Below, piece by piece: positions 944 to 14,596 of a stretch of DNA of 64,000 nt (position 1 is the first letter of the stretch; the number at the start of each line of letters is the position of its first letter). The stretch is from Anaerolineae bacterium. Lineage in GTDB: Bacteria > Chloroflexota > Anaerolineae > Aggregatilineales > Phototrophicaceae. The notes under the pieces are model-generated. The model worked only from the letters and a program-made list of their open reading frames with translations. It ran no database searches and had not been told where the DNA came from. The position numbers were made by a program, and so were the translations under genes. The DNA is taken from assembly GCA_022824565.1 (NCBI GenBank), contig JAJDZQ010000166.1, positions 1-64,000 on the forward strand. The letters run 5' to 3'.

Positions 944-2953
944 CTAGCTGCCGCCTTCGAAGTACCATTGTTCGGGCATGAACATAACCCACTGCCGGTA
1001 GCTCCAGGCCCATTGCCCGGTCGTGTCGTTGGGCGGCGTGTTCTTCAAGTTCTTCTTGAAGAGCAGCGGCTGCGGCGGACGCTGGATGGTACCAATCTGA
1101 TAGAGGCCGCCGAAAGAGGTGTTATAGAAGGCTTTGCCAGCCTCTAACCACTCATCGGAAAGATAGGGTTTGGACAGGTATTCCTCGCCCATATTCCACA
1201 GGTCAACGACTTCTTGAGGCGGTTCTTCGCCACTTTCGCCGTCGCTGAGGATCCATTCTCGCCAGGGGATGCCCGAGGCGCGATTGCCCCAGGGCACGCG
1301 CATATTGCCCAGGCCGCTGGCCATGGCGCCGATATCCAGAATGTCTGCGCCCCAAGCCGAGATATCCAGCGAATTGCTGTTGCGCAGCTCGCGGAAGAGC
1401 CCGTCGCCGATGATCTTGTACTGGGTCTTGACGCCGACTTCGTTCCAATAGGAAGCGATCAACTCGCCGATCTGACGCCAGGAATCTTCGGGCACATAGA
1501 CCTGGAAGTTGATGAAGAGCGTCTCGCCATCCGGGCGCATGCGGAAGCCATCGGCATCGCGCTGGTCCAGCCCCATCTCGTCCAGCAACTGATTGGCCAA
1601 GTCGGGATCGTACTGCGCGTAGTTGGTGGTCATCCAGGGCTCATAGAATGCTGACGAGGGCACCGGCGCGCTTTGTGAGGCGTTGGCCAGTCCGAAGTAG
1701 ACGAGTTCGTTGATTTCGTCGCGATTGATGGCGACAGACATGGCTTGGCGGAAGCGCAGATCCCAGAAGATTTCGCGCAGGGGCAGGTTTTCGGTCGTGA
1801 AGTTGAACATCAGCGAATACTCGTTGGCGCGGCTGTATTCCGCTAGCGCTGTCCGATAGCCGCCCGCTTCTTCATTCTCGCGATAGGTCGGATAACTGCC
1901 CAGCGAGCCCCAGCCGAAGTGCGTGTATTCGCCCGCGATGCCTTTCAAATCCTGCACCTGCACATCTTCCACCAGCAAGCGGCGCAAGGTATCGGTATAG
2001 GGCAGTTGATTGCCAGCCGTGTCCACCTTGAAGAAGTAGGGGTTGCGCTCGTAGAGCTTGTTGCCAAAGGCGTCTTCGCTCACAAACACAAAGGTGTTCA
2101 GGGTTGGCGAATAGGGATCGGTCTCCGAGCCGAGATTCCAGGTGTTGTTGTAGGTGTTCATCTTGGCATTGAACATCTGCACCCAGCTTTCAAAGCCCAG
2201 TTCATCCGCCAGAGCGCCGGCATCCGGGTTGTAATCGATGTGATACTGCTCGAAGTAGTGAGCGGGCCGATAGCCGCGATGACCAATCTCGCTTCCAATG
2301 GCGATGAGGAGCGTGGGACGGGCTTCTGGATACGAGAAACGGATCGTCTGCTCGTCGATGATCTCCATCGCTGGCAGCTCGCCATCCAGCACCCAGGGAC
2401 CGCCCGGCGCGGGAGTCAACTCGGGGTTGCCAAGCACATCCTCGAACCAGAAGCGGAAGTCATCGGTGGTAAATGCTTCGCCATCCGACCATCTGTGCCC
2501 TTCGCGGAGTGTGAAGGTGAAAGTCGTCTGGTCGTCAGAAACATCAAAAGATTGCGCGACATTGGGGATGATGCTGATCAAGTCGGTATCGATGGTCAGC
2601 AGCTTCTGCAAACGCATCTCCAACACATCCCAGCCACAGCAAGTGGGCAGCGCAGAAGGACCCTTCAGCTCGCCGCCATATTCGCCGATCTGTTCCAGCG
2701 GCTGGACGACGACAGGTTGCGCGGGCAGGCGCTCTTCCACCGGTGGCAGTTCACCAGCGGCGACTTTCTCCGCCAGCATAGGCGCCTCTCCCCAGCTGTC
2801 GATGCTGTTGCCAGTAGCGGCGGAGTAGGCAGCGAGGTCGGCATATTGGAATGGATAGACCAGCTCGCCCTCGTGCATGGCTTGCCCGAAAACGACAGTC
2901 GGCAGCAAGACCAATGCCAAGACAGTCATGAGTACAAATTGGCTTCGTTTCAT
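944..2953 (-). CDS. ABC transporter substrate-binding protein, family 5 (peptide/oligosaccharide type)
   Basis: This 669-residue extracytoplasmic binding protein is of the DppA/OppA type (SBP_bac_5). Members import oligopeptides, nickel or, in several thermophiles and Chloroflexota, oligosaccharides. The chosen ATG gives MKRSQFVLMTVLALVLLPT, a clear signal peptide, with GGAG just upstream; an upstream in-frame start would bury this signal. No lipobox cysteine is visible at the probable cleavage site after VVFG, unusual for a binding protein in a lineage often described as single-membraned. Internal matches include SDGEAFTTDDFRFWFEDV and LRFRQAMSVAINRDEIN, standard for the family. It lies between the cycloisomerase-like and GH117-like genes and diverges from the matching permeases, so an oligosaccharide ligand is more likely than a peptide. 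Confidence 0.88.
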   Translation of the reverse strand: MKRSQFVLMTVLALVLLPTVVFGQAMHEGELVYPFQYADLAAYSAATGNSIDSWGEAPMLAEKVAAGELPPVEERLPAQPVVVQPLEQIGEYGGELKGPSALPTCCGWDVLEMRLQKLLTIDTDLISIIPNVAQSFDVSDDQTTFTFTLREGHRWSDGEAFTTDDFRFWFEDVLGNPELTPAPGGPWVLDGELPAMEIIDEQTIRFSYPEARPTLLIAIGSEIGHRGYRPAHYFEQYHIDYNPDAGALADELGFESWVQMFNAKMNTYNNTWNLGSETDPYSPTLNTFVFVSEDAFGNKLYERNPYFFKVDTAGNQLPYTDTLRRLLVEDVQVQDLKGIAGEYTHFGWGSLGSYPTYRENEEAGGYRTALAEYSRANEYSLMFNFTTENLPLREIFWDLRFRQAMSVAINRDEINELVYFGLANASQSAPVPSSAFYEPWMTTNYAQYDPDLANQLLDEMGLDQRDADGFRMRPDGETLFINFQVYVPEDSWRQIGELIASYWNEVGVKTQYKIIGDGLFRELRNSNSLDISAWGADILDIGAMASGLGNMRVPWGNRASGIPWREWILSDGESGEEPPQEVVDLWNMGEEYLSKPYLSDEWLEAGKAFYNTSFGGLYQIGTIQRPPQPLLFKKNLKNTPPNDTTGQWAWSYRQWVMFMPEQWYFEGGS

Positions 2954-3014
2954 GCGTAAGCTCCTTTCAAAGCTTTGAACGACAACAGGTATTATGCGGG
3001 TCGGCAAGGTTCAT

Positions 3015-4118
3015 TCAGTCTCCTTTCACTTCAAATTCACGCAGTTTGTCCCACTCAAATTGCACGCCGTGGCCTGGCTCTGCGCCGGCGCGCATCAGGC
3101 CATCATGCAGCAGGGGCGGGTTCTTGATGAAGCGCTCGAGGCCGAAGCTGTGCACTTCCAAAAACGAAGCGTTGGGGATCGCCGCCAGCAAATGCAAGTG
3201 CAGCTCGTGTACGCCATGCGAAGTTACTGGCAAGTTGTGCGCATAGGCCAGCCGCGCCACGCGCATCCAATTGGTGATGCCGCCAATATTCGATACATCG
3301 GGTTCGGCAAAAGCGATGCCAGCCTCGAGTGTGTGGCGGAATTCATAGATCGTGCGCAGGTTTTCGCCCGCGGCGATTGGCAAGCCGCCTTCACGCGCGA
3401 TGCGGCTCAAGCCGGCATAATCGTCGGGGATAGTCGGCTCTTCCAGCCAGAAGACATCAAATTCGCGGAAACTGCGCGCCGCGCGGATGGCTTGCTCGGT
3501 TGTCCAGCGCATATTGGCATCGACCATCAGCGGCCTATCGGGACCCAGACAATCGCGGACCGCCCGCAGCCTGGCGATATCTTCGGACAGCTTGTCGCGC
3601 CCCACCTTGATTTTGATGGCGCGGAAGCCGTCAGCCAGGTTGCAGCGCGTCTGCTCGACCAGTTCGTCTGGTCCCAGCTGCAAATCGATGCCGCCGGCAT
3701 AGGCCTGGGCCTCGCCAGCATATCCGCCCAGCAGCTTCCACAGCGGCTGTCCCTGGCTGCGCGCCAACAAATCCCACAAGGCGATATCGACCGCCGACAT
3801 GGCGAAGGCTGCCAGCCCGCCCCGCCCCACATAATGCAGGCAGCGCCACATGCGTTCCCAGATCTGCTCGATGCGGCCCGCGTCTGCGCCCAGCAGCAAC
3901 GCTTGTAAATCGCGCTGGATCAAAGAGCGGATCGCCGCGCCACCACGCCCTATCGTATAGGTGTAGCCGATGCCGCTCTGGCCGCACTCGCTTTCCAGGC
4001 GCACGGCCACCACCTCAAATTCGGTGTGCACGCCATGCGTGGCATCGGTCATGGGATGGCTGAGCGGCAGCAAGAAATGCCGCGTTTCGACGCAGGCGAT
4101 GCGCAGCGGGTCGTTCAT
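3015..4118 (-). CDS. Enolase-superfamily enzyme resembling 3,6-anhydro-L-galactonate cycloisomerase
   Basis: This 367-residue protein has the mandelate racemase/muconate-lactonising fold. The expected catalytic parts are visible: lysines in KIKVGR (K169, K171), metal ligands D200 (VDAN), E226 (LEEPT) and E252 (AGEN), and a catalytic histidine at H301 (SHGVHELH). HYVGRGG, AFAMSAVDIALWDL, GGIDLQ, EEPTIPDDY, SNIGGITNW and LEVHSFG match my memory of the anhydrogalactonate cycloisomerase subgroup (EC 5.5.1.25), which opens 3,6-anhydro-L-galactonate to 2-keto-3-deoxy-L-galactonate. That subgroup call rests on recall, not a search; a sugar-acid dehydratase is the alternative. The ATG is preferred over the TTG one codon upstream because GGGAG sits at good spacing. 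It is the first gene of the leftward operon and its context with GH117 supports the call. Confidence 0.7.
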   Translation of the reverse strand: MNDPLRIACVETRHFLLPLSHPMTDATHGVHTEFEVVAVRLESECGQSGIGYTYTIGRGGAAIRSLIQRDLQALLLGADAGRIEQIWERMWRCLHYVGRGGLAAFAMSAVDIALWDLLARSQGQPLWKLLGGYAGEAQAYAGGIDLQLGPDELVEQTRCNLADGFRAIKIKVGRDKLSEDIARLRAVRDCLGPDRPLMVDANMRWTTEQAIRAARSFREFDVFWLEEPTIPDDYAGLSRIAREGGLPIAAGENLRTIYEFRHTLEAGIAFAEPDVSNIGGITNWMRVARLAYAHNLPVTSHGVHELHLHLLAAIPNASFLEVHSFGLERFIKNPPLLHDGLMRAGAEPGHGVQFEWDKLREFEVKGD

Positions 4119-4201
4119 CAAGGGCGCTCCCGACGCGCAGACACCAACTGGCCTGTCGGCATCCTGGTTGCGGAAAGAAGACTGCGTGGCAACATAAGGG
4201 A

Positions 4202-4325: not shown

Positions 4326-5321
4326 ATGAGAAACTATGTCTTGCAGCGCCTGGTCTATATGGTCTTCTTGCTGTGGCTGGTCACCGTCGTCACTTTCATC
4401 GTGATTCAGCTGCCGCCAGGCGACTATCTTTCCAGCTACATCAGCCGGTTGGAACAAGCTGGCGAACAGCTTTCGGACGAGCAGGTGACGAACCTGCGCC
4501 GCCAGTATGGGTTGGACCTGCCCATCTATGCCCGTTACTTCAGTTGGTTCCGGCAGGTGCTGCAGGGCGAATTCGGATTCTCGTTTGATTGGCAGCAGCC
4601 GGTGCGCGATATCATCGGCGAGCGGCTGGTCTTGACCTTCACGATTGCGATTCTGACTGCCATCTTCACTTATGCGGTGGCCATCCCCATCGGCATATAT
4701 TCCGCGGCGCGGCAATATTCCATCAGCGATTACATCGTTTCTTTCATCGGCTTTATCGGCTTGTCGATTCCCAATTTTATGCTGGCCCTCATCATGCTCT
4801 ATGTGGCCTGGTCGCAATTTGGTCTGAACTTGACCGGCTTGTTCTCGCAGGAATTTCAAGGCGCGCCCTGGAGTTTGGCGAAATTGGGCGATCTGGCGCT
4901 GCACCTGCCCATTCCCATCATTGTGGTCGGCACGGGCGGCACGGCCGGCATGATCCGCGTCATGCGCGGCACCTTGCTGGACGAGCTGAACAAGCAGTAT
5001 GTCATTACCGCGCGCAGCAAAGGCGTGGGCGAAGTCAAGCTGCTTTTCAAATATCCAGTGCGGGTGGCGCTAAACCCCATCATCAGCAGCCTCGCCTGGC
5101 TCTTCCCCAGCTTGATTTCGGGCGGCACCATCACCGCCTATGTGCTGGGTTTGCCCACGGCGGGACCGATGCTGCTGCGCTCCTTGCTGACGCAAGACAC
5201 CTTTTTAACGGCGAGCTTGCTGATGTTCGTCACGATTCTGACCGTCATCGGCACGACGGTTTCCGACATCCTGCTGGTCGTGGTCGACCCGCGCATCCGC
5301 ATGGAACGCGCGGCCAACTAG
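4326..5321 (+). CDS. ABC transporter permease, DppB/OppB family
   Basis: This 331-residue inner-membrane permease has six predicted spans, beginning LVYMVFLLWLVTVVTFIVIQL. The cytoplasmic EAA-type loop that contacts the ATPase is visible around VITARSKGVGEVKLLFKYPV (about residues 222-241), followed by SSLAWLFPSLISGGTITAYV. It should pair with the DppC-type permease 6 bases downstream and with the binding protein across the divergent promoter. No ATPase subunits are present in the window, so they must be encoded elsewhere. Expression should start at the TTGACA/TACAAT promoter about 55 bases upstream. Confidence 0.9.
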   Translation: MRNYVLQRLVYMVFLLWLVTVVTFIVIQLPPGDYLSSYISRLEQAGEQLSDEQVTNLRRQYGLDLPIYARYFSWFRQVLQGEFGFSFDWQQPVRDIIGERLVLTFTIAILTAIFTYAVAIPIGIYSAARQYSISDYIVSFIGFIGLSIPNFMLALIMLYVAWSQFGLNLTGLFSQEFQGAPWSLAKLGDLALHLPIPIIVVGTGGTAGMIRVMRGTLLDELNKQYVITARSKGVGEVKLLFKYPVRVALNPIISSLAWLFPSLISGGTITAYVLGLPTAGPMLLRSLLTQDTFLTASLLMFVTILTVIGTTVSDILLVVVDPRIRMERAAN

Positions 5322-5327
5322 GCGGAG

Positions 5328-6479
5328 ATGACGATGTTGCGGCGAATCGGCATCAGGCGCGGAGCGACCAAAGCGCAAGCCACCGCTTTTGACGAGAGCT
5401 ATTATCTCGCCTCGCAGTGGCAGCTGATCTGGCGCAAGTTTCGGCGGCATCGCCTGGCAATCGGGTCGCTGGCTGTCATCATCGTCCTCTATTCGATGGC
5501 GCTCTTCTCCGAATTCTATGCCATCAATGACTATCAGAAGCGCCATGTCAAATTTGCGAAGTCGCCACCGCATACCATTTACTTTGTCGATGACACGGGC
5601 ATTTTCAGCTTGCAACCCTTCATTTATCAAATGAAGCAAACCCTGGATATGGACACATTGCAGCGCAATTATTCCGAAGTGCGCGACAAAAAGTACCCGA
5701 TCCATTTCTTTGTGCGGGGCGAGCCTTACAAGATTCTGGGCTTGTTGGAAAGCGATATCCACATCATGGGCGTGGAAGCGCCGGGCGTCTTCTTCCCGTT
5801 TGGCACAGACGACCTGGGTCGCGATCTGTACTCCCGCACCATGCACGCGGCGCGCATCTCGCTGTCGATCGGTTTCCTGGGCGTCATCATCAGTTTTGTG
5901 CTTGGCTGCTTGTTCGGCGGCATCTCTGGCTACTTCGGCGGCGTGGTCGATCTGGTGATCCAGCGCTTGATCGAATTTTTGATATCGATCCCGTCAATCC
6001 CGCTGATTATTGCGCTGGCGGCTGCCCTGCCCGCCGAGTGGAGTTCGACCCAGGTGTATTTTGGCATCACGTTGGTGCTGGCCACCGTCGGCTGGACGAC
6101 GTTGGCGAGAGCGGTGCGCGGCAAATTGCTGGAACTGCGCGAGGCAGATTTCGTCATGGCGGCGCGCATATCCAACATGGGCGACCTGGATATCATCTTG
6201 AAGCACCTGCTGCCTTCGTTCGCCAGCTTTTTGATCGTCGTGTTGAGCCTGGCGGTGCCGGGCATGATCCTCGCCGAGACATCGCTGAGTTTCTTGCAGA
6301 TCGGCATACGCCCACCCGCCGTCAGCTGGGGCGTGCTGCTGCAAGACGCGCAGAATATCCGCAGCCTCAGCCAAAGCCCCTGGCTCTTGATCCCGGGCTT
6401 GTTTGTCATCGTGACCGTGCTGGCGTTCAACTTTCTGGGCGATGGTTTGCGAGATGCCGCCGACCCCTACAAACAATGA
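5328..6479 (+). CDS. ABC transporter permease, DppC/OppC family
   Basis: This 383-residue second permease is longer than the usual roughly 300 because a large hydrophilic insert (about residues 65-150) separates the first span from the rest. The family mark GTDDLGRDLYSR precedes the core spans, and the EAA loop follows (ADFVMAARISNMGDLDIILK, about 268-287). Long-insert DppC proteins are seen in oligosaccharide-type systems, which agrees with the glycosidase context, though this is inference. The gene follows the DppB-type gene at 6 bases with a GGCGGAG ribosome site. Confidence 0.9.
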   Translation: MTMLRRIGIRRGATKAQATAFDESYYLASQWQLIWRKFRRHRLAIGSLAVIIVLYSMALFSEFYAINDYQKRHVKFAKSPPHTIYFVDDTGIFSLQPFIYQMKQTLDMDTLQRNYSEVRDKKYPIHFFVRGEPYKILGLLESDIHIMGVEAPGVFFPFGTDDLGRDLYSRTMHAARISLSIGFLGVIISFVLGCLFGGISGYFGGVVDLVIQRLIEFLISIPSIPLIIALAAALPAEWSSTQVYFGITLVLATVGWTTLARAVRGKLLELREADFVMAARISNMGDLDIILKHLLPSFASFLIVVLSLAVPGMILAETSLSFLQIGIRPPAVSWGVLLQDAQNIRSLSQSPWLLIPGLFVIVTVLAFNFLGDGLRDAADPYKQ

Positions 6480-6668: not shown

Positions 6669-7277
6669 ATGACGACAATCGAAATTTATCGTACGCTGCC
6701 CGAGCAGATCGCCGCACGCCTGCGCCGCGAAGTGCTTTCCAACAAACTGAAACCCGGCGATCCCCTGCGCGAGGCCGATCTTTCACAACGATTCGGGGTC
6801 AGCCGTGGTCCTGTGCGCGAGGCATTCCGCCAGCTTACCCAACAGGGTTTGCTGGTGCTCGAGCCCAACAAAGGCGCGCGTGTCGCCCAAAATCCCAGTG
6901 TGGAGGTGCGGCCGCTGGTCGTGCAGCTGCGCCGAACTATCGAGACTTTTGTGCTGGACAGCATCTTCGATCGCATCACCGAGATGGATATCGGGCGCTG
7001 GGAAGATAGCCTGGCAGCTATCTACGCAGCCTGTCAAAACAACGATGTCGATGCGCTGACCGACTGCGACCTGCGCTTCCACCAGGCGATTATCCAGAGC
7101 CACGATGACAAAGACATCTTTACGTTGTGGCAGCCGATCGCCATGCGCATGATGATGCAATATACGCGCCACGGCGATATCATGGAAAGCTACCGCGAGC
7201 ACAAGCGCATCCTGGATGCCATCCGCCGCGGCGACAAGCCAGGCGCAATCGATGCGCTATACGCCAATATCCAGTAA
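6669..7277 (+). CDS. GntR-family transcriptional regulator with FCD domain
   Basis: This 202-residue protein has an N-terminal winged helix (about 10-75: LREADLSQRFGVSRGPVREA, QQGLLVLEPNKGARVA) and a C-terminal all-helical FCD ligand domain (about 85-200) with DLRFHQAII and EHKRILDAI, where FCD proteins bind a metal and a small acid. FCD regulators usually repress sugar-acid or organic-acid operons and release DNA on binding the pathway acid. Its position inside the locus and the shared palindrome at 4237-4248 and 10480-10491 make it the probable local regulator. No copy of the palindrome is seen directly upstream of its own gene. Confidence 0.88.
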   Translation: MTTIEIYRTLPEQIAARLRREVLSNKLKPGDPLREADLSQRFGVSRGPVREAFRQLTQQGLLVLEPNKGARVAQNPSVEVRPLVVQLRRTIETFVLDSIFDRITEMDIGRWEDSLAAIYAACQNNDVDALTDCDLRFHQAIIQSHDDKDIFTLWQPIAMRMMMQYTRHGDIMESYREHKRILDAIRRGDKPGAIDALYANIQ

Positions 7278-7349: not shown

Positions 7350-7369
7350 AATTGGAAACAGGACGAAAT

Positions 7370-8389
7370 ATGGCAATCGCAGCATTTTATGAAGGTGAGC
7401 GCCGCATCCGGCCGGGCGACTGTGAGCCGCGTCCGCCAGCCGCAGACGAGGTGCAATTGCGCGTTTCGCATTGTGGCATTTGTGGCACAGACCTGCACAT
7501 TTTTCATGGCGCGATGGATGCGCGCGTGCAGATGCCGCTTGTGATGGGGCACGAAATGTCGGGCACAGTGCACACAACGGGCGCAGGCGTCGACGAGTTC
7601 GCGCCGGGCGATCGGGTGGTCGTCATGCCGCTGGCCGCCTGCCACCGCTGCCCCGCTTGCGCAGCCGGGCACAGCCACATCTGCCACAACCTGGACTTCC
7701 TTGGCATCGACACGCCGGGCGCATTCCAGAGCTACTGGACTGTGCCAGCCAATACATTGCACCGCGTGCCGGCCGCGCTTTCTCTGCAACATGGCGCGCT
7801 GATCGAGCCGCTGGCGGTCGCCTGTCATGATGTGCGGCTGGCAAATGTGCAGGCGGGCGATGAGGTAGTCGTGCTGGGCGGCGGTCCCATCGGCATGCTG
7901 GTGGCGCTGGTGGCGCGACAGGCTGGCGCAGCTGTGCTCGTCTCCGAAATCAACCCCTACCGTGTCGACCTGGCGCGGCAGCTTGGCTTCGAGGCGATCA
8001 ATCCACGCGAGGCTGATCTGCTGGCGGCGGTGCTGCGGCGCACAGGTGGCGCTGGCGCCGATATCGTCTTTGAAGTATCGGGCTCGCAGGCTGGCGCTGC
8101 TGTGATGACCGAGTTGCTGCGCACGCGCGGATTGGCCGTGGTGGTCGCGATCTTCGCCCAGCCACCAAAGCTCGACCTGTTCCGCTTCTTTTGGCGCGAA
8201 CTGCGCTTGCAAGGGGTGCGCGTCTATGAAAGTCAAGACTTCGCCACCGCCATCGACTTGGCTGCTTCTGGCGCGCTGCCGCTGGACGAGCTTATCACCG
8301 ATATCCGCCCTTTAAACGCGCTGCAGTCTGGCTTTGAGGACATGGAAAAAGGCGGGCGCGTCATGAAGATTCTGTTGGAGGTGTCATGA
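7370..8389 (+). CDS. Zinc-dependent alcohol dehydrogenase (MDR family); candidate 2-keto-3-deoxy-L-galactonate 5-dehydrogenase
   Basis: This 339-residue medium-chain dehydrogenase has catalytic-zinc ligands C38 (ICGTD), H61-E62 (GHE) and E146, four structural-zinc cysteines (C91, C94, C97, C105), and a nucleotide-binding GGGPIG near 170. The fold is like sorbitol, threonine or galactitol dehydrogenase. The start ATG at 7370 has AGGAC upstream; an in-frame TTG at 7352 is less likely. Its stop overlaps the start of the KduD-like gene by 4 bases, so the two are probably translated together. In the known anhydrogalactose pathway, a dehydrogenase of this kind oxidises C5 of 2-keto-3-deoxy-L-galactonate before a KduD-like reduction. 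The family is certain; the substrate is inferred from context. Confidence 0.88.
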   Translation: MAIAAFYEGERRIRPGDCEPRPPAADEVQLRVSHCGICGTDLHIFHGAMDARVQMPLVMGHEMSGTVHTTGAGVDEFAPGDRVVVMPLAACHRCPACAAGHSHICHNLDFLGIDTPGAFQSYWTVPANTLHRVPAALSLQHGALIEPLAVACHDVRLANVQAGDEVVVLGGGPIGMLVALVARQAGAAVLVSEINPYRVDLARQLGFEAINPREADLLAAVLRRTGGAGADIVFEVSGSQAGAAVMTELLRTRGLAVVVAIFAQPPKLDLFRFFWRELRLQGVRVYESQDFATAIDLAASGALPLDELITDIRPLNALQSGFEDMEKGGRVMKILLEVS

Positions 8390-9156
8390 ACGTGCTCGAT
8401 ACATTTCGGCTGGATGGCAAGACGGCGCTGGTGACCGGGGCGCGCCGCGGCATTGGTTTTGCCATGGCCAGCGCACTGGCAGAAGCGGGCGCGGATATCA
8501 TCGCGGTCAGCGCCAGCCTAGAAGCCAGCGGCAGCGAGATTGAGCGGGCTGTCTTGGCGCAGGGGCGGCGCTTCGCTGGCTATCGCTGCGACTTCTCAAA
8601 GCGCGACGAGCTGCACAAATTTATCGCACAGGTGACAAGTGAACAGCCCGTCATCGACATTTTGGTCAACAACGCGGGAACTGTCCTGCGCGAGCCGGCC
8701 GCCACGCACAGCAATGCCTATTGGGACCGCATCATCGAAATCAACCTGAGCGCCCAGTTCGTGCTCAGTCGCGAGGTCGGCGCGCGCATGCTGGAGCGAG
8801 GCAGCGGCAAGATCATCTTTACGGCATCGCTGCTGACATTCCAAGGCGGCATCACGGTGCCGGGCTATGCAGCCAGCAAGGGCGGCATCGGGCAACTGAC
8901 GAAGGCGCTGGCGAACGAATGGGCGAGTGGCGGCGTACAAGTTAATGCTATCGCGCCCGGTTATGTGCGCACCGATGTAACCGAAGCGCTGCAAAATGAC
9001 CCCGAACGGTATCTCGCCATCACAGAGCGAATCCCGGCCGGGCGCTGGGGCACGATCGACGATTTTAGGGGACCGGTCGTCTTCCTGGCATCGGCAGCCT
9101 CCGATTTCGTCAACGGCGAGATTCTGGTTGTCGACGGCGGCTGGATGGGGCGCTGA
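8386..9156 (+). CDS. Short-chain dehydrogenase, KduD-like
   Basis: This 256-residue classical SDR has TGARRGIG for cofactor binding, NNAG, and the catalytic set N120, S148, Y161 and K165. RIPAGRWG, FLASAASDFVNG and VVDGGW near the C-terminus are typical of 2-keto-3-deoxy-D-gluconate 5-dehydrogenase (KduD), which interconverts 2-keto-3-deoxygluconate and its 2,5-diketo form. It starts within the stop of the zinc dehydrogenase. The pair would oxidise and then re-reduce C5, converting the L-galactonate to the D-gluconate configuration. The KduD-like call is good; the direction and exact substrate are inference. Confidence 0.85.
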   Translation: MNVLDTFRLDGKTALVTGARRGIGFAMASALAEAGADIIAVSASLEASGSEIERAVLAQGRRFAGYRCDFSKRDELHKFIAQVTSEQPVIDILVNNAGTVLREPAATHSNAYWDRIIEINLSAQFVLSREVGARMLERGSGKIIFTASLLTFQGGITVPGYAASKGGIGQLTKALANEWASGGVQVNAIAPGYVRTDVTEALQNDPERYLAITERIPAGRWGTIDDFRGPVVFLASAASDFVNGEILVVDGGWMGR

Positions 9157-9162
9157 GCGATA

Positions 9163-10398
9163 TTAGACGCCGATGGTTGGCTTGTCGAAGGCAGCTTGTT
9201 CAGCCAAGATACGCTCGCGCCAGTCTGTGGGCAGACGCGCCACCCGCTGAAAGAAAGTCTCTTCGCTGAAGTGCAGGTTGCTGCGCTTGAATTCTGGACG
9301 ATGACAGTCGCGCGACAAGTCGCAATCGAAGCGGATGATATGGCAGCCCCTGCGCGAACCATCGCCCGGCGGCGTGATGTGGCTTAATCCCCAGGTGATG
9401 CCACGCCCATCGTTGTTATCCGCGAAGGCATCGGGACAGAAGGGACCAGGCGCCACCGGCGACAGCTGCACATGCGCCATGGGCTGGAAGTTCAGCCCGT
9501 CCGGCGCAAATTGAATGGTATCTTTTTCCGGACCATCCAGTATCAGCAAGGTAGCAATGCCGCCTTTGTAATTCCAATACATGGTTTCATGCCCGGAATT
9601 GGTGACCGGGTTCAGCTCGGACTTGCTGAAGGGTCCTGCTGGATTGTCGGCGATGGCGACACCCTGCGCGAGTCGCAATCCGCCGGAGATTTTCTCGAAA
9701 GGCGAGCCTTTGTAATAGAGCCAGACCTGTCCCTTGTAGACCAGCGGATACGGGTCGTGGATGGCGCAGCTATCCCATTCGCCAGGCGCGCCTTGCGGGA
9801 CAATCGGCACATCCATGCGCGTCCAGGGACCATCTGGCGAATCGGCATGCGCCATGCTGACGCCAACGCAATCATGCGCCCGCCACTTGGTCGTGAAGCA
9901 CTGGTAATACAAATAATATCGACCTTTCCAGACCAGGATATCCGGCGTGGAAAGCGAGCGGTCGCCATACGTGCCTTTGGGCGCGCGCGGCACGGCGATG
10001 CCTTGCTCCACCCAGTCGAAGCCGTCTTTTGATGTGGCATAGCAGATATCGGCCAGGTCCCAATCGACGGCGGGGATCTCTTCATTCGCCTGGTCGTGGT
10101 GGCGCATGCCCACTGGCACATGCTCGGTGATGCGCCGCGTGTACCAAACATAATAGGTATCGCCAATCTTGAGCACCTTGGACGGGTCGCGCCGCGAAAC
10201 AGACATTTCCGATTCGTCTTTGCCGATGCCGCTGACGCGCGAATACATAAAGTTGGTATAGAAAGGATTGCCCGGGTCTTGCCTGGGCGTCCACATGTCA
10301 TAAACGCGTTCGGTAGCCGCGCTCAAGGGGCGGTCGGTGGGTTTGGTCTGTGGCATCATGCCAGGGAAAGCGCGCGGTTTTTTGCTGTCTTCGGTCAT
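9163..10398 (-). CDS. Glycoside hydrolase family 117-like protein
   Basis: This 411-residue single-domain enzyme has the GH117 landmarks RRDP (D71), WDLADICYATSKDGFDW, IHDP (D215), NSGHET (H270, E271) and GPEKDTIQFAPDG. The spacing of the three acidic residues (144 then 56) is close to that in the other copies. No signal peptide is visible, so it is probably cytoplasmic. It is transcribed leftward, back to back with the GMC gene, and its stop lies 6 bases from the stop of the KduD-like gene. It shares the 10.48-kb operator region with the GMC/GH117 pair. Its N-terminal 25 residues are poorly ordered. GH43 is the alternative family name. Confidence 0.82.
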   Translation of the reverse strand: MTEDSKKPRAFPGMMPQTKPTDRPLSAATERVYDMWTPRQDPGNPFYTNFMYSRVSGIGKDESEMSVSRRDPSKVLKIGDTYYVWYTRRITEHVPVGMRHHDQANEEIPAVDWDLADICYATSKDGFDWVEQGIAVPRAPKGTYGDRSLSTPDILVWKGRYYLYYQCFTTKWRAHDCVGVSMAHADSPDGPWTRMDVPIVPQGAPGEWDSCAIHDPYPLVYKGQVWLYYKGSPFEKISGGLRLAQGVAIADNPAGPFSKSELNPVTNSGHETMYWNYKGGIATLLILDGPEKDTIQFAPDGLNFQPMAHVQLSPVAPGPFCPDAFADNNDGRGITWGLSHITPPGDGSRRGCHIIRFDCDLSRDCHRPEFKRSNLHFSEETFFQRVARLPTDWRERILAEQAAFDKPTIGV

Positions 10399-10479
10399 GG
10401 TGTCTCCTTGTTGCCTGCCTGCGGCAATCTAAATAATCGCCGCAAATGAGTGTTGGATTGCTTGACACTTGTGCTGTCG

Positions 10480-10491
10480 ATTGTAGACAAT
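10480..10491. promoter_or_regulatory. Palindromic operator ATTGTAGACAAT between divergent genes
   Basis: This perfect palindrome with a two-base centre lies between the leftward GH117-like gene and the rightward GMC gene. It matches 11 of 12 bases of the site at 4237-4248. A TTGACA at 10462-10467 and a weak TAGACA at 10484-10489 (16-base spacing) would place the operator over the rightward -10 box; a second TTGACA abuts it at 10491. FadR/GntR-type operators are commonly of the TTGTnnACAA form, so the local regulator is the probable ligand. Confidence 0.65.
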
Positions 10492-10541
10492 TGACAAGAC
10501 CTGGTCAACTAATCGCTGCAAAATGGGAAGAGGGCGCGGTC

Positions 10542-12122
10542 ATGCACGAGGCGGACTACATCATCATCGGCGCGGGCTCGGCCGGGGCAGCTGTCGCGGC
10601 GCGCCTGAGCGAAGACCCGCAGGCGGCTGTGCTGTTGCTGGAAGCGGGCGGACCCGACAGCGACCCGACTATTCATGTGCCGGCGCGTTTTTCCGACCTA
10701 TTTCACAGCGAGTTCGACTGGGATTATGAAACTGTGTCCCAGCCCGGGCTGAACGGTCGCCGAGAATATGTGCCGCGCGGCAAAGTCTATGGCGGCACCA
10801 GCTCCATGAACGCCATGGTCTATCAGCGCGGGCATCCATCCGATTATGATGGCTGGGCAGAGGCGGGCAACACGGGCTGGGCATATCGGGATCTGCTGCC
10901 CTGGTTCAAAAAGATGCAGCATCAGGAACGCGGCGCATCGCGGCATCACGGCATCGGCGGACCGATCAATGTGGCCGACCTGCGAGACCCGAATCCGTTG
11001 AGCCGTGCCTTCGTGGCTGGCGCGCTGGAACTGGGATATGCGCCGCGCGCGGATTTTAATGCTGGCGAACAAGCGGGCTTCGGTCTTTACCAGGTTACGC
11101 AGAAGCGCGGGCAGCGACACAGCAGCGCCGTCGGTTACCTGCCAACAGCCTTGCAGCGCCCAAATTTCACTGCCTTGCCCTTTGCCCGGGTCACGCGGTT
11201 GTGTTTTGAGGGCAGACGTTGCCAGGGAGTCGAGTTTTGGCACGAGGGCGAGCGCAAGACCGCGCAGGCGAGAAAGGAAGTTGTCGTCTGTGGCGGCGCG
11301 ATTAACTCGCCACAACTGTTGCTGCTTTCGGGCATTGGGGCGGCTGCGCAGTTGGCGAGGCATGGCATCCCCGTGATAGCGGACCTGCCGGGCGTTGGGC
11401 AGGGCTTGACAGATCATATGCAGGTGCCGGTCGCCTATCATTGCCATGCGCCAATCAGCCTGGTCGGGAAGAACGCGCCAGAGCAGCAGCGGCTCTATGC
11501 AGAAGAGCGCATGGGCTTGCTGACATCGAACCTGGGCGAGGCGGGCGGGTTCGTGCGGCTCGACCCGCGTTCACCTGCGCCGGAGCTGCAATATCACTTT
11601 GGTCCCGACTGGTTCATCCGCCACGGCTTCGCGACGCCGGCGGGGCACGGCTTTACCATTCTGGCTGGCTTGGTCGGCACAAAGAGCGCCGGCAAGCTCG
11701 AACTGGCTTCGGCAGATCCCTGCGCGGCGCCATTGATCGACTTCGACTGCCTAAGCCACGTTGACGATGTGCGCATTCTGCTGGCGGGGGTCAAGCTGGC
11801 GCGGCAGATCGCCCAGGCAAGCGCATTTGATGCGGTTCGCGGCGCTGAATTCTTGCCCGGCGCGCAAGTCACAGCGGACGCGGAACTCATTCATTTCATC
11901 CGCGAATTCGCCACCACGATTTATCATCCCGCCTGCACCTGCAAGATGGGCGATGATCGGTTGGCGGTGGTGGACGAACGGCTGCGCGTGCATGGCTTGG
12001 CAGGGCTGCGCGTGGCTGACGCTTCGATTATGCCGCGCATCATCAACGCCAACACCAATGCGCCCTGCATCATGATTGGCGAAAAAGCGGCGCATATGAT
12101 CCGCGAGGACAACAGACGATGA
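10542..12122 (+). CDS. GMC-family FAD-dependent oxidoreductase
   Basis: This 526-residue flavoprotein is of the glucose-methanol-choline family. The FAD-binding IIIGAGSAGAAVAARLSED is at residues 7-25, the second FAD motif RGKVYGGTSSMNAMVYQRG is at about 80-98, and the C-terminal catalytic region has IYHPACTCKMG followed by RVADASIMP and NANTNAPC. Family members oxidise alcohols or aldehydes, passing electrons to oxygen or the respiratory chain. The ATG at 10542 with AGAGGG upstream is preferred over an upstream in-frame start because it puts the FAD motif at the N-terminus. It overlaps the two-domain GH117 gene by 4 bases. In a pathway lacking an aldehyde dehydrogenase it could oxidise the released anhydrosugar; this is a guess from position. 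Confidence 0.88.
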   Translation: MHEADYIIIGAGSAGAAVAARLSEDPQAAVLLLEAGGPDSDPTIHVPARFSDLFHSEFDWDYETVSQPGLNGRREYVPRGKVYGGTSSMNAMVYQRGHPSDYDGWAEAGNTGWAYRDLLPWFKKMQHQERGASRHHGIGGPINVADLRDPNPLSRAFVAGALELGYAPRADFNAGEQAGFGLYQVTQKRGQRHSSAVGYLPTALQRPNFTALPFARVTRLCFEGRRCQGVEFWHEGERKTAQARKEVVVCGGAINSPQLLLLSGIGAAAQLARHGIPVIADLPGVGQGLTDHMQVPVAYHCHAPISLVGKNAPEQQRLYAEERMGLLTSNLGEAGGFVRLDPRSPAPELQYHFGPDWFIRHGFATPAGHGFTILAGLVGTKSAGKLELASADPCAAPLIDFDCLSHVDDVRILLAGVKLARQIAQASAFDAVRGAEFLPGAQVTADAELIHFIREFATTIYHPACTCKMGDDRLAVVDERLRVHGLAGLRVADASIMPRIINANTNAPCIMIGEKAAHMIREDNRR

Positions 12123-14596
12123 ACAGGCCAGACCGCAAGCCACGGCTGCCCGGCGAGCCAGGCGCTGCCCAGCCAAACGACCGTCAGCTTAGCGCCGCCA
12201 CGCAACGTCTGTATGACAAGTGGGGACGTTATCAAGATTCCACCAGCAAATTCTACACGACCTTCAAATACAGCCGCCTTGCGGGCATCGGCAAAGAAGC
12301 TGGCATCACCCGGCGCGACCCGACCACGGTGCTGCGCATCGACGGCACCTACTTCGTCTGGTATACGCGCCGTCAAACCGCAAACGATCGCGACCAGCGC
12401 AACAAGCCACCTCACCAGCGGCAGACCTGGGATACACCGGTCTTTGATTGGGATCTGGCAGAGATCTGGTACGCGACCTCCACAGACGGATTCAGCTGGC
12501 AAGAGCGCGGGGTGGCCATCAAGCGGGGACCGAAAGCTGCCTATGATGGCCGCTCGGTTTTCACGCCCGATGTTTTGATGACGGCGGACGGCTTCTATCT
12601 CTATTATCAGGCTGTCGATTACCCTTATTGCACGCGCACGCGCAACAGCATCGGCCTGTCTTTCGCCAGCTCGCCGCATGGTCCCTGGCAGCGCGTCGAT
12701 ACGCCGGTGCTGCGACCGGGCGCCGCTGGAGAATGGCTGGGCGAAGACGACACAGACGAAGTAAGTCGTTATGGCGACTGGGACAGCCACAAGGTGCACG
12801 ATCCCTTCATTCTGGCGCGGGATGGCAGCTATTGGCTCTATTACAAGGGGCAGCCCATGGGCTGGACGACCCGCTATTCGCGCGGGATAGGCTGGGGCGT
12901 CGCCATTGCCGACAAGCCAGACGGTCCGTTTGTCAAATCGCCGCTGAATCCTGTAACCAACAGCGGGCACGAAACCTGTCTGTTTCCCTATGGAGAAGGC
13001 GTGCTGGCTATTTGCGGGCACGACGGACCCGAGAAAGACAGCATCCAATACGCGGCTGACGGGCTGAACTTTGAAGTGGTCGCGCATGTCACGCTGCCGC
13101 CGCCCGCCGGAGGTCCTTTTGCGCCAGATGCCTATGAGCACACGCGTGATGGCAGCGGCATCGCCTGGGGGCTCGCGCATATGGCCACCGAAGAGATGAA
13201 GAGCGGCAACTCCTACCTCATCCGCTTTGATTGCAACTTGCGCCGCGGGCTCGAGCGACCTGGTTTTCGTGGCACAAATATCCGCTTCCCCGAAGCCGTT
13301 TATTTCTCGCCCGATCTGGCGTTGAACGAGCGCAACAAACAGCCACTGCGCTTTGCCAGCGAGCCGCAGAAACCTCCAGAAGCGCCGCCACCACCTCCGC
13401 ATAGCCGGGCATCGCAACGGGTATATAAAACCTATGGCGTATACAAAGACCAAGGCAGCGAATTCTTCTCGGCATTCAAGTATTCGCCACTCAGCGGGCT
13501 GGGCAAGGAAGCCGGCGTCACACGGCGCGACCCATCCAAAGTCATTCGCGTTGGCGAAAAGTATTATGTCTGGTATACGCGCCGCAAAACCGCAGAGGCC
13601 TGGCGCGGAATTCAGCAAGCCAGCCAAACGCGTCCAGCCTGGGCTTGGGACCTGGCGGATATCTGGTACGCGACATCCACAGACGGATTCAGCTGGCGAG
13701 AACGGGGACCAGCTGTGATTCGGGGCGCGCCCGGCCGCTTTGACGACCGCTCTGTATTCACCCCCGATATCCTGATGCACGGCGGCAAATTCTATCTCTA
13801 CTATCAGGTTATCCAGGGCGTATGGGCAGAGCGGACGCGACACCGTATCGGCATGGCCTGGGCAGATGCGCCCCAGGGACCCTGGACGAAGCTGGACCAG
13901 CCTGTCTTGCAGCCCGGTCGAGCTGGCGAGTTCTGTGGCGCAGAAGATGATGCCGATGCGATCGGCAGCTTCGGCGAATGGGACTCGCACAAATTGCACG
14001 ATCCTTTTGTGCTGCGCTACCGCGGGCAGATTTGGCTCTATTACAAAGGTGTGCAATATGGGCGGACTTATCGACACGATCTGGGCATCGGCTGGGGGGT
14101 CGCCAGAGCCGACAATCCGCAGGGTCCATTTGTCAAGTCGCCTTTGAACCCGCTCACCAACAGCGGCCACGAGACCTTCCTCTATCCATTTCGCGAAGGC
14201 ATTGTCGCCATCACCAGCCACGAAGGTCCCGAGAAGAACACAGTCCAATTTGCGAGCGATGGCTTGAACTTCCAAGTGGTCGGCAAAGTGTCTGTGCCGC
14301 CAGTTGCCGCGGGACCCTATGTGCCCGATGCCTTCACCGACAACCGGGACGGACGCGGCATCAGCTGGGGCTTGTCGCACATCCACCACGATGATGCGGG
14401 AGCGCTGGCGGATAGTTACCTGGTGCGCTTCGACTGCAACCTCAGCCGCGATGAGCAACGGGCCGATTTTTACCGCGCCTGGAATTATCGCTTTCCAGAA
14501 TCAGCTTATTTCAGCCAGGCATTCGCGCTGACGCCACCAATGAAAGACGAAGCGCTGCAACTCATGGCGAAGATCGACACAGATACGCGCGTCTGA
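12119..14596 (+). CDS. Tandem two-domain GH117-like glycosidase
   Basis: This 825-residue protein is built from two full-length GH117-like propellers. Domain 1 (about 25-405) has RRDP with D67, VHDP with D228 and NSGHET with H284-E285. Domain 2 (about 430-805) has D471, D628 and H684-E685. A proline-rich linker (about 415-430, EAPPPPPHS) joins them. Spacings of 161/57 and 157/57 between the acidic residues agree with the family active site as I recall it (155/58). Both halves keep every catalytic landmark, so both may be active, possibly on different linkages. No signal peptide is seen. Known GH117 enzymes are single-domain proteins of about 360-400 residues, so this fusion is unusual. It is translationally coupled to the GMC gene. 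Confidence 0.85.
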   Translation: MNRPDRKPRLPGEPGAAQPNDRQLSAATQRLYDKWGRYQDSTSKFYTTFKYSRLAGIGKEAGITRRDPTTVLRIDGTYFVWYTRRQTANDRDQRNKPPHQRQTWDTPVFDWDLAEIWYATSTDGFSWQERGVAIKRGPKAAYDGRSVFTPDVLMTADGFYLYYQAVDYPYCTRTRNSIGLSFASSPHGPWQRVDTPVLRPGAAGEWLGEDDTDEVSRYGDWDSHKVHDPFILARDGSYWLYYKGQPMGWTTRYSRGIGWGVAIADKPDGPFVKSPLNPVTNSGHETCLFPYGEGVLAICGHDGPEKDSIQYAADGLNFEVVAHVTLPPPAGGPFAPDAYEHTRDGSGIAWGLAHMATEEMKSGNSYLIRFDCNLRRGLERPGFRGTNIRFPEAVYFSPDLALNERNKQPLRFASEPQKPPEAPPPPPHSRASQRVYKTYGVYKDQGSEFFSAFKYSPLSGLGKEAGVTRRDPSKVIRVGEKYYVWYTRRKTAEAWRGIQQASQTRPAWAWDLADIWYATSTDGFSWRERGPAVIRGAPGRFDDRSVFTPDILMHGGKFYLYYQVIQGVWAERTRHRIGMAWADAPQGPWTKLDQPVLQPGRAGEFCGAEDDADAIGSFGEWDSHKLHDPFVLRYRGQIWLYYKGVQYGRTYRHDLGIGWGVARADNPQGPFVKSPLNPLTNSGHETFLYPFREGIVAITSHEGPEKNTVQFASDGLNFQVVGKVSVPPVAAGPYVPDAFTDNRDGRGISWGLSHIHHDDAGALADSYLVRFDCNLSRDEQRADFYRAWNYRFPESAYFSQAFALTPPMKDEALQLMAKIDTDTRV

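Follow-up and report, generated by a model that had tools for sequence, protein, structure and literature searches.

A single gene in the 64,000-nt stretch analysed here (Anaerolineae bacterium, assembly GCA_022824565.1, contig JAJDZQ010000166.1, positions 1–64,000 of the forward strand; hereafter the window) encodes two GH117 domains on one chain, and by homology, fold and core residues this tandem protein is a GH117 enzyme. With moderate confidence, we interpret it as a cytosolic, covalently linked pseudo-dimer that would release terminal 3,6-anhydro-L-galactose (AHG) from imported oligosaccharides, its first domain (A) being active and its second (B) probably active, though tuned differently. 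It departs from described GH117 enzymes in its covalent tandem architecture and in the glutamate that half B carries at the position of a catalytic dyad.

The open reading frame (ORF) lies on the plus strand at 12119–14593 (ATG start, stop codon to 14596) and encodes 825 residues, the two halves of which (1–403 and 404–825) share 55% identity over 382 aa (E 2e-155). In phmmer searches of the PDB, both halves matched GH117 structures at E 1e-76 to 1e-89 with no comparable other match, while Pfam assigned the protein to the related family GH43 only and no GH117 model matched. The motifs RRDP, HDP and SGHE begin at residues 65, 227 and 282 in half A and at 469, 627 and 682 in half B, and the spacing from RRDP to HDP is 162 vs. 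158 residues and that from HDP to SGHE 55 in both. An earlier note on this DNA had claimed two complete GH117 domains with near-identical motif spacing, the glutamates E285 and E685 and a proline-rich linker between the halves; all of this agrees with our data, the proline-rich stretch being PPEAPPPPP at about residues 419–427, within a linker that is less conserved than any other part of the protein. As a whole, however, the earlier note was only partly borne out, and it missed the Asp/Glu difference at the dyad, the single GH117 gene and the further GH117 pair at the same locus, and an anhydrogalactose pathway gene, all of which are described below. Opposite the tandem, an antisense frame of 844 aa (11924–14458, minus strand) is probably a compositional shadow of the coding frame.

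The full chain was modelled with AlphaFold2 from a 56-row alignment, consisting of 31 tandem rows and 25 single-domain rows that MAFFT apparently set on half A only. The prediction is a compact two-domain body with an ordered linker (predicted local distance difference test, pLDDT, 90.1; predicted template modelling score, pTM, 0.91), and the high pTM indicates a defined placement of the two domains relative to each other. The top 18 PDB matches of the model are all GH117 proteins and the expected five-bladed propeller is present; the best match, Zg3615 with bound beta-AHG, aligned with a template modelling (TM) score of 0.87–0.89 over about 410 columns, nearly the whole chain. In GH117 dimers, each subunit packs its N-terminal helices against the other and, with its C-terminus, constricts the other's active site (PMC11574756), and in BuGH117B a histidine from the partner subunit completes the +1 subsite (PMC5849685). 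Since both N-terminal helix arms are retained in the tandem, a covalent version of the GH117 dimer is the simplest reading, and the full-chain prediction is in line with the proposal, already made in the earlier note, that the fusion could mimic the dimer.

The two active sites are not equal. Comparison of 33 A halves and 33 B halves, in the residue numbering of PpGH117, revealed Asp90, Asp245, His302 and Glu303 in all A halves and in every B half but that of genome G212, in which His302 and Glu303 are missing. At position 320, Asp was found in 33/33 A halves, while 32 of the 33 B halves, including that of UBA3499, carry Glu and the B half of G212 carries Ala. In PpGH117, Asp320 and the general acid His302 share a proton, and a His/Asp dyad mechanism has been proposed (PMC11574756). 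This dyad partner is thus present in the A halves and absent from the B halves, so that the membership of B in GH117 rests on features other than Asp320. Because UBA3499 also has Glu, the exchange in B is probably older than the split between the lineages of the window's genus, G212 and UBA3499, judging from these sequences. Within the genus, the ratio of nonsynonymous to synonymous substitution rates (dN/dS) is about 0.07–0.12, indicating purifying selection on both halves that is slightly weaker on B. Elsewhere in the family the dyad position varies further: residue 320 is Cys in 42/42 readable sequences of the paralog group of the second GH117 pair, and some members of a divergent set of GH117-like proteins from a different taxonomic family of the class (L085 2753–6186, L104 1651–4905) have Asn or Ala at 320 and Thr at 303, so neither the dyad Asp nor Glu303 is universal.

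In the mechanism that we propose, an Opp-type importer would bring in short, possibly sulfated, AHG-ended oligosaccharides, from which the tandem would cleave terminal AHG in the cytosol. We infer both the substrate and the location: the genomic context is what points to AHG release, and no obvious signal peptide was seen on reading of the N-terminal sequence alone. Oxidation of the AHG would follow, with either the coupled GMC enzyme or a nearby dehydrogenase as a possible catalyst, and a neighbouring cycloisomerase would open the oxidised product to 2-keto-3-deoxygalactonate. Within the protein, two predicted five-bladed propellers, each with its own N-terminal helix arm, would pack like the subunits of a GH117 dimer, an arrangement that, like the activity of B, we infer from the modelled fold and the retained residues. 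Domain A would be the constitutive active site, with an Asp base, a His acid and an Asp dyad partner, whereas domain B, which keeps the other catalytic residues and has Glu for the dyad Asp, would probably be active on a different substrate or at a different pH, and would also complete A as its partner. Several observations weigh against this interpretation. An earlier AlphaFold2 run on the 31 tandem rows, a shallow alignment, gave a pLDDT of 68 and a pTM of only 0.57. Both halves, in all sequences compared, have Asp at position 167, where AhgA-type structures have the Glu characteristic of clade A, and mutation of Glu167 inactivates PpGH117 (PMC11574756); yet Zg3615 and Zg3597 also have Asp at this position. 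Finally, no GH16 domain was found above cut-off in the window's genome.

The nearest alternative is a covalent heterodimer with one working site, in which A is the enzyme and B a partner on the way to becoming a pseudoenzyme, with completing or gating the site of A as its main role. Evidence for this comes from G212, where the A half is intact while the B active site is destroyed: RSDP replaces RRDP, QDP replaces HDP, SGRA replaces SGHE (with Arg for His302 and Ala for Glu303), Ala stands at 320 and Arg at 260 in place of Lys260, and about 37 residues of core loops are missing. The remaining B core is only 49% identical to that of the window's protein, as opposed to 79% for the tail (residues 782–800), and the Glu that every other B half has at the dyad position points the same way. 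Against this, the other catalytic residues of B are invariant in the window's genus, B evolves almost as slowly as A, and G212 is one sequence, the decay of which may be lineage-specific; we consider a single working site unlikely. In a related and equally tentative form, the protein might be an obligate covalent heterodimer in which the second propeller is giving up catalysis for the role of a partner: its dyad is altered in every species and one genus has lost its active site altogether, yet the tail that would close the site of A is kept. If so, active-site sharing in GH117 dimers would have driven first gene fusion and then a division of labour.

It is improbable, in our view, that the halves are two independent enzymes that differ in aglycone specificity, fused merely so that they are co-expressed in equal dosage and making no functional interdomain contact. 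The fixed differences between A and B do include likely pocket loops (positions 160, 184–186, 262–266, 305 and 320), and the poor conservation of the proline-rich linker would also fit; however, the pTM of 0.91 and the ordered linker speak for fixed packing, and both helix arms are retained.

The distribution of the tandem was assessed in about 900 Chloroflexota genomes, and near relatives were also sought in one pattern scan. With each species represented by one genome, 33 loci were obtained; apart from a Bacteroidales single gene (L039) and a case split over two contigs (L033/L038), all of them encode the tandem, at 53–94% identity. An uninterrupted tandem, with an open frame of 826–908 aa, is present in 30/34 genomes of the window's family (counting genus members or match carriers), and in one further genome (G391) it is split over contigs; these open frames were re-derived from the DNA. 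Identity across the window's genus, represented by about 30 independent metagenome-assembled genomes, is 74–94%, and G212, of a second genus, is the only carrier in the family outside it. A more distant tandem occurs in UBA3499 and UBA3001, which are near-identical records. An assembly or frame error joining two neighbouring genes, as the earlier note had allowed, has a negligible probability. Neighbouring GH117 genes on the same strand do occur at the same locus, some of them in frame and divided by just one stop codon (L087, L089), but the tandem runs uninterrupted in about 30 assemblies obtained independently and in three lineages, which refutes such an error; conservation of the whole tandem also excludes chance. 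Other GH117s in 396 sampled genomes of the class have frames of 193–492 aa and are single-domain, as are plasmid-borne GH117s with a span of about 1.1 kb; a scan of IMG/VR found no relatives. An apparent second fusion, an upstream pair in G802 and G806 listed as open frames of 799–822 aa, was rejected because the DNA contains two ORFs separated by stops. The bins of the window's genus bear names that we take to indicate marine sponge hosts, and the tandem-bearing Chloroflexota are probably sponge-associated.

As for the origin of the fusion, the domain alignment and GH117 tree called for by the earlier note lent no support to its suggestion of in-gene duplication. The A halves and the B halves each form a clade of their own, with the long B half of UBA3499 left unplaced, while the single GH117 gene beside the tandem (S) groups with Zg3615/Zg3597 (support 100/99). 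Support for B grouping with the S/Zg clade is 93/80, and in approximately unbiased (AU) tests neither an A+B clade (p-AU 0.202) nor a grouping of A with S/Zg (p-AU 0.225) was rejected. A, B and the S/Zg3615 clade thus radiate almost together, and the A/B split is as deep as that from the free-standing relatives, so that a recent duplication within the gene is not supported, although the A+B clade itself stands unrejected. The halves are therefore old paralogs, which separated at about the time when free-standing relatives in Bacteroidota and Chloroflexota branched off, and the fusion itself predates the parting of the genus, G212 and UBA3499, unless it was moved by transfer. At two loci (L087 2098–4494, minus strand; L089 12794–15061, plus strand), adjacent GH117 genes lie in one frame with a single stop codon between them, and such pairs possibly represent the pre-fusion state and a route by which the fusion could arise. 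In the UBA3499 tandem (L031 156–2774), the linker between the GH117 domains is long and contains a zinc-ribbon-like stretch (ICRCGFEQINSDSRVCGRCGD).

The genes around the tandem are listed in Table 1. The overlap of the GMC oxidoreductase stop with the tandem start makes translational coupling probable. Cycloisomerase orthologs also occur near the tandem in G212 and UBA3499, although for the window's ORF 3015–4121 the structure 2ovl, an uncharacterised Streptomyces-type racemase, scores slightly above 5xd7. An aldehyde dehydrogenase gene adjoins the UBA3499 ortholog; the window's genome has no counterpart closer than 36% identity, so another oxidoreductase may oxidise AHG, and the coupled GMC enzyme is a candidate. 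The window start and the end of contig C133 share an exact overlap of 141 bases, and C133 supplies the other member of the GH117 pair truncated at the contig edge (L106 5320–6784, minus strand), along with a sulfatase next to this pair and an Opp ATPase; the genome holds 24 sulfatase genes. ORF 2994–3908 (plus strand), without a Pfam or NCBIfam match, was discarded as a shadow of the cycloisomerase gene, which lies on the opposite strand.

Table 1. Coordinates of the tandem GH117 gene, its motifs and its neighbours in the window
Feature	Position	Strand	Remarks
GH117 domain A, residues 1–403	12119..13327	+	N-terminal helix arm about 22–45, then propeller; phmmer 4ak5 4e-86, 4u6d 2.5e-79; PpGH117 catalytic residues present
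RRDP of domain A, general base Asp67 (= PpGH117 Asp90)	12311..12322	+	role per PMC11574756
HDP of domain A, Asp228 (= Asp245)	12797..12805	+	PpGH117 mapping
SGHE of domain A, general acid His284 and Glu285 (= His302/Glu303)	12962..12973	+	PpGH117 mapping
Asp302 of domain A (= dyad Asp320)	13022..13024	+	Asp in all A halves
Linker, residues 404–428	13328..13402	+	proline-rich at about 416–427; predicted ordered, pLDDT 85–92
GH117 domain B, residues 429–825	13403..14593	+	own N-terminal helix arm; phmmer 4u6d 4e-89
RRDP of domain B, Asp471 (= Asp90)	13523..13534	+	PpGH117 mapping
HDP of domain B, Asp628 (= Asp245)	13997..14005	+	PpGH117 mapping
SGHE of domain B, His684/Glu685 (= His302/Glu303)	14162..14173	+	PpGH117 mapping
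Glu702 of domain B at dyad position 320	14222..14224	+	Glu in all B halves but that of G212 (Ala)
GMC oxidoreductase	10446..12122	+	stop overlaps tandem ATG (ATGA); near but below choline dehydrogenase cut-off; GMC also adjoins tandem in G212
Single-domain GH117 (S), Zg3615/Zg3597 type, divergent	9163..10398	-	phmmer 4u6d 8e-117, 4u6b 6e-112; conserved partner of tandem
SDR dehydrogenase, KduD-like	8386..9156	+	below KduD cut-off
Zinc-type alcohol/sugar dehydrogenase	7352..8389	+	family match
GntR/FCD transcriptional regulator	6669..7277	+	family match
Opp-type ABC permeases, two genes (4326–5321, 5328–6479)	4326..6479	+	family match
3,6-anhydro-L-galactonate cycloisomerase ortholog (enolase superfamily)	3015..4121	-	phmmer 5xd7 E 2e-112; 68% identical to gene near G212 tandem
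Family 5 solute-binding protein, Opp-type transporter	944..3007	-	PF00496 3e-56
First gene of second GH117 pair, cut by contig edge	1..835	-	continues on contig C133

Among known systems, the clade A alpha-1,3-(3,6-anhydro)-L-galactosidases (ZgAhgA 3p2n, PpGH117 4ak5, BuGH117B 5ta7, SdNABH 3r4y) share with the tandem the fold, Asp90/His302/Glu303, Asp245, Lys260 and the N-terminal helix arm. They are, however, single-domain homodimers or octamers in contrast to one chain with two domains, and those aligned (3p2n, 4ak5, 5ta7) have Glu167, whereas the tandem has Asp167 in both halves and Glu320 in B. The earlier note's statement that GH117 enzymes are single-domain proteins forming dimers agrees with the characterised members, which are dimers or octamers (PMC8152962, PMC11574756); the subunits in a published comparison table are about 40–45 kDa, with one early report of 10 kDa (PMC8152962), and this size implies one domain each. 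Zg3615/Zg3597 of Zobellia galactanivorans (4u6d, 4u6b) are GH117 proteins outside the AhgA clade of the tree; they belong to the same larger clade as the tandem and share its Asp167, and Zg3615, the best fold match, was crystallised with beta-AHG. Unlike the tandem, they are single-domain and lack a loop of roughly 16 residues before WDSHKxHDP that A and B keep, and their nearest equivalent in the window is the separate S gene. The Vibrio-type AHG pathway (AHG dehydrogenase and the 5xd7 cycloisomerase) resembles the cluster in its cycloisomerase ortholog and, in UBA3499, in the aldehyde dehydrogenase; in place of a close aldehyde dehydrogenase, the window's genome has GMC, SDR and zinc-type alcohol dehydrogenase genes, along with Opp-type import. 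A phrase search of the literature found no description of a tandem GH117, with subscription papers, including the 2015 paper on Zg3615/Zg3597, outside its coverage.

Finding an anhydrogalactose pathway, but no GH16 agarase, in probably sponge-associated Chloroflexota raises the question of which anhydrogalactan serves as their food. For the family, the occurrence in nature of Asp, Glu and Cys at the dyad position provides material for testing the His/Asp mechanism (PMC11574756), and since the halves of this natural fusion are unequal, either site can be inactivated on its own within a single molecule, something that a homodimer does not permit.

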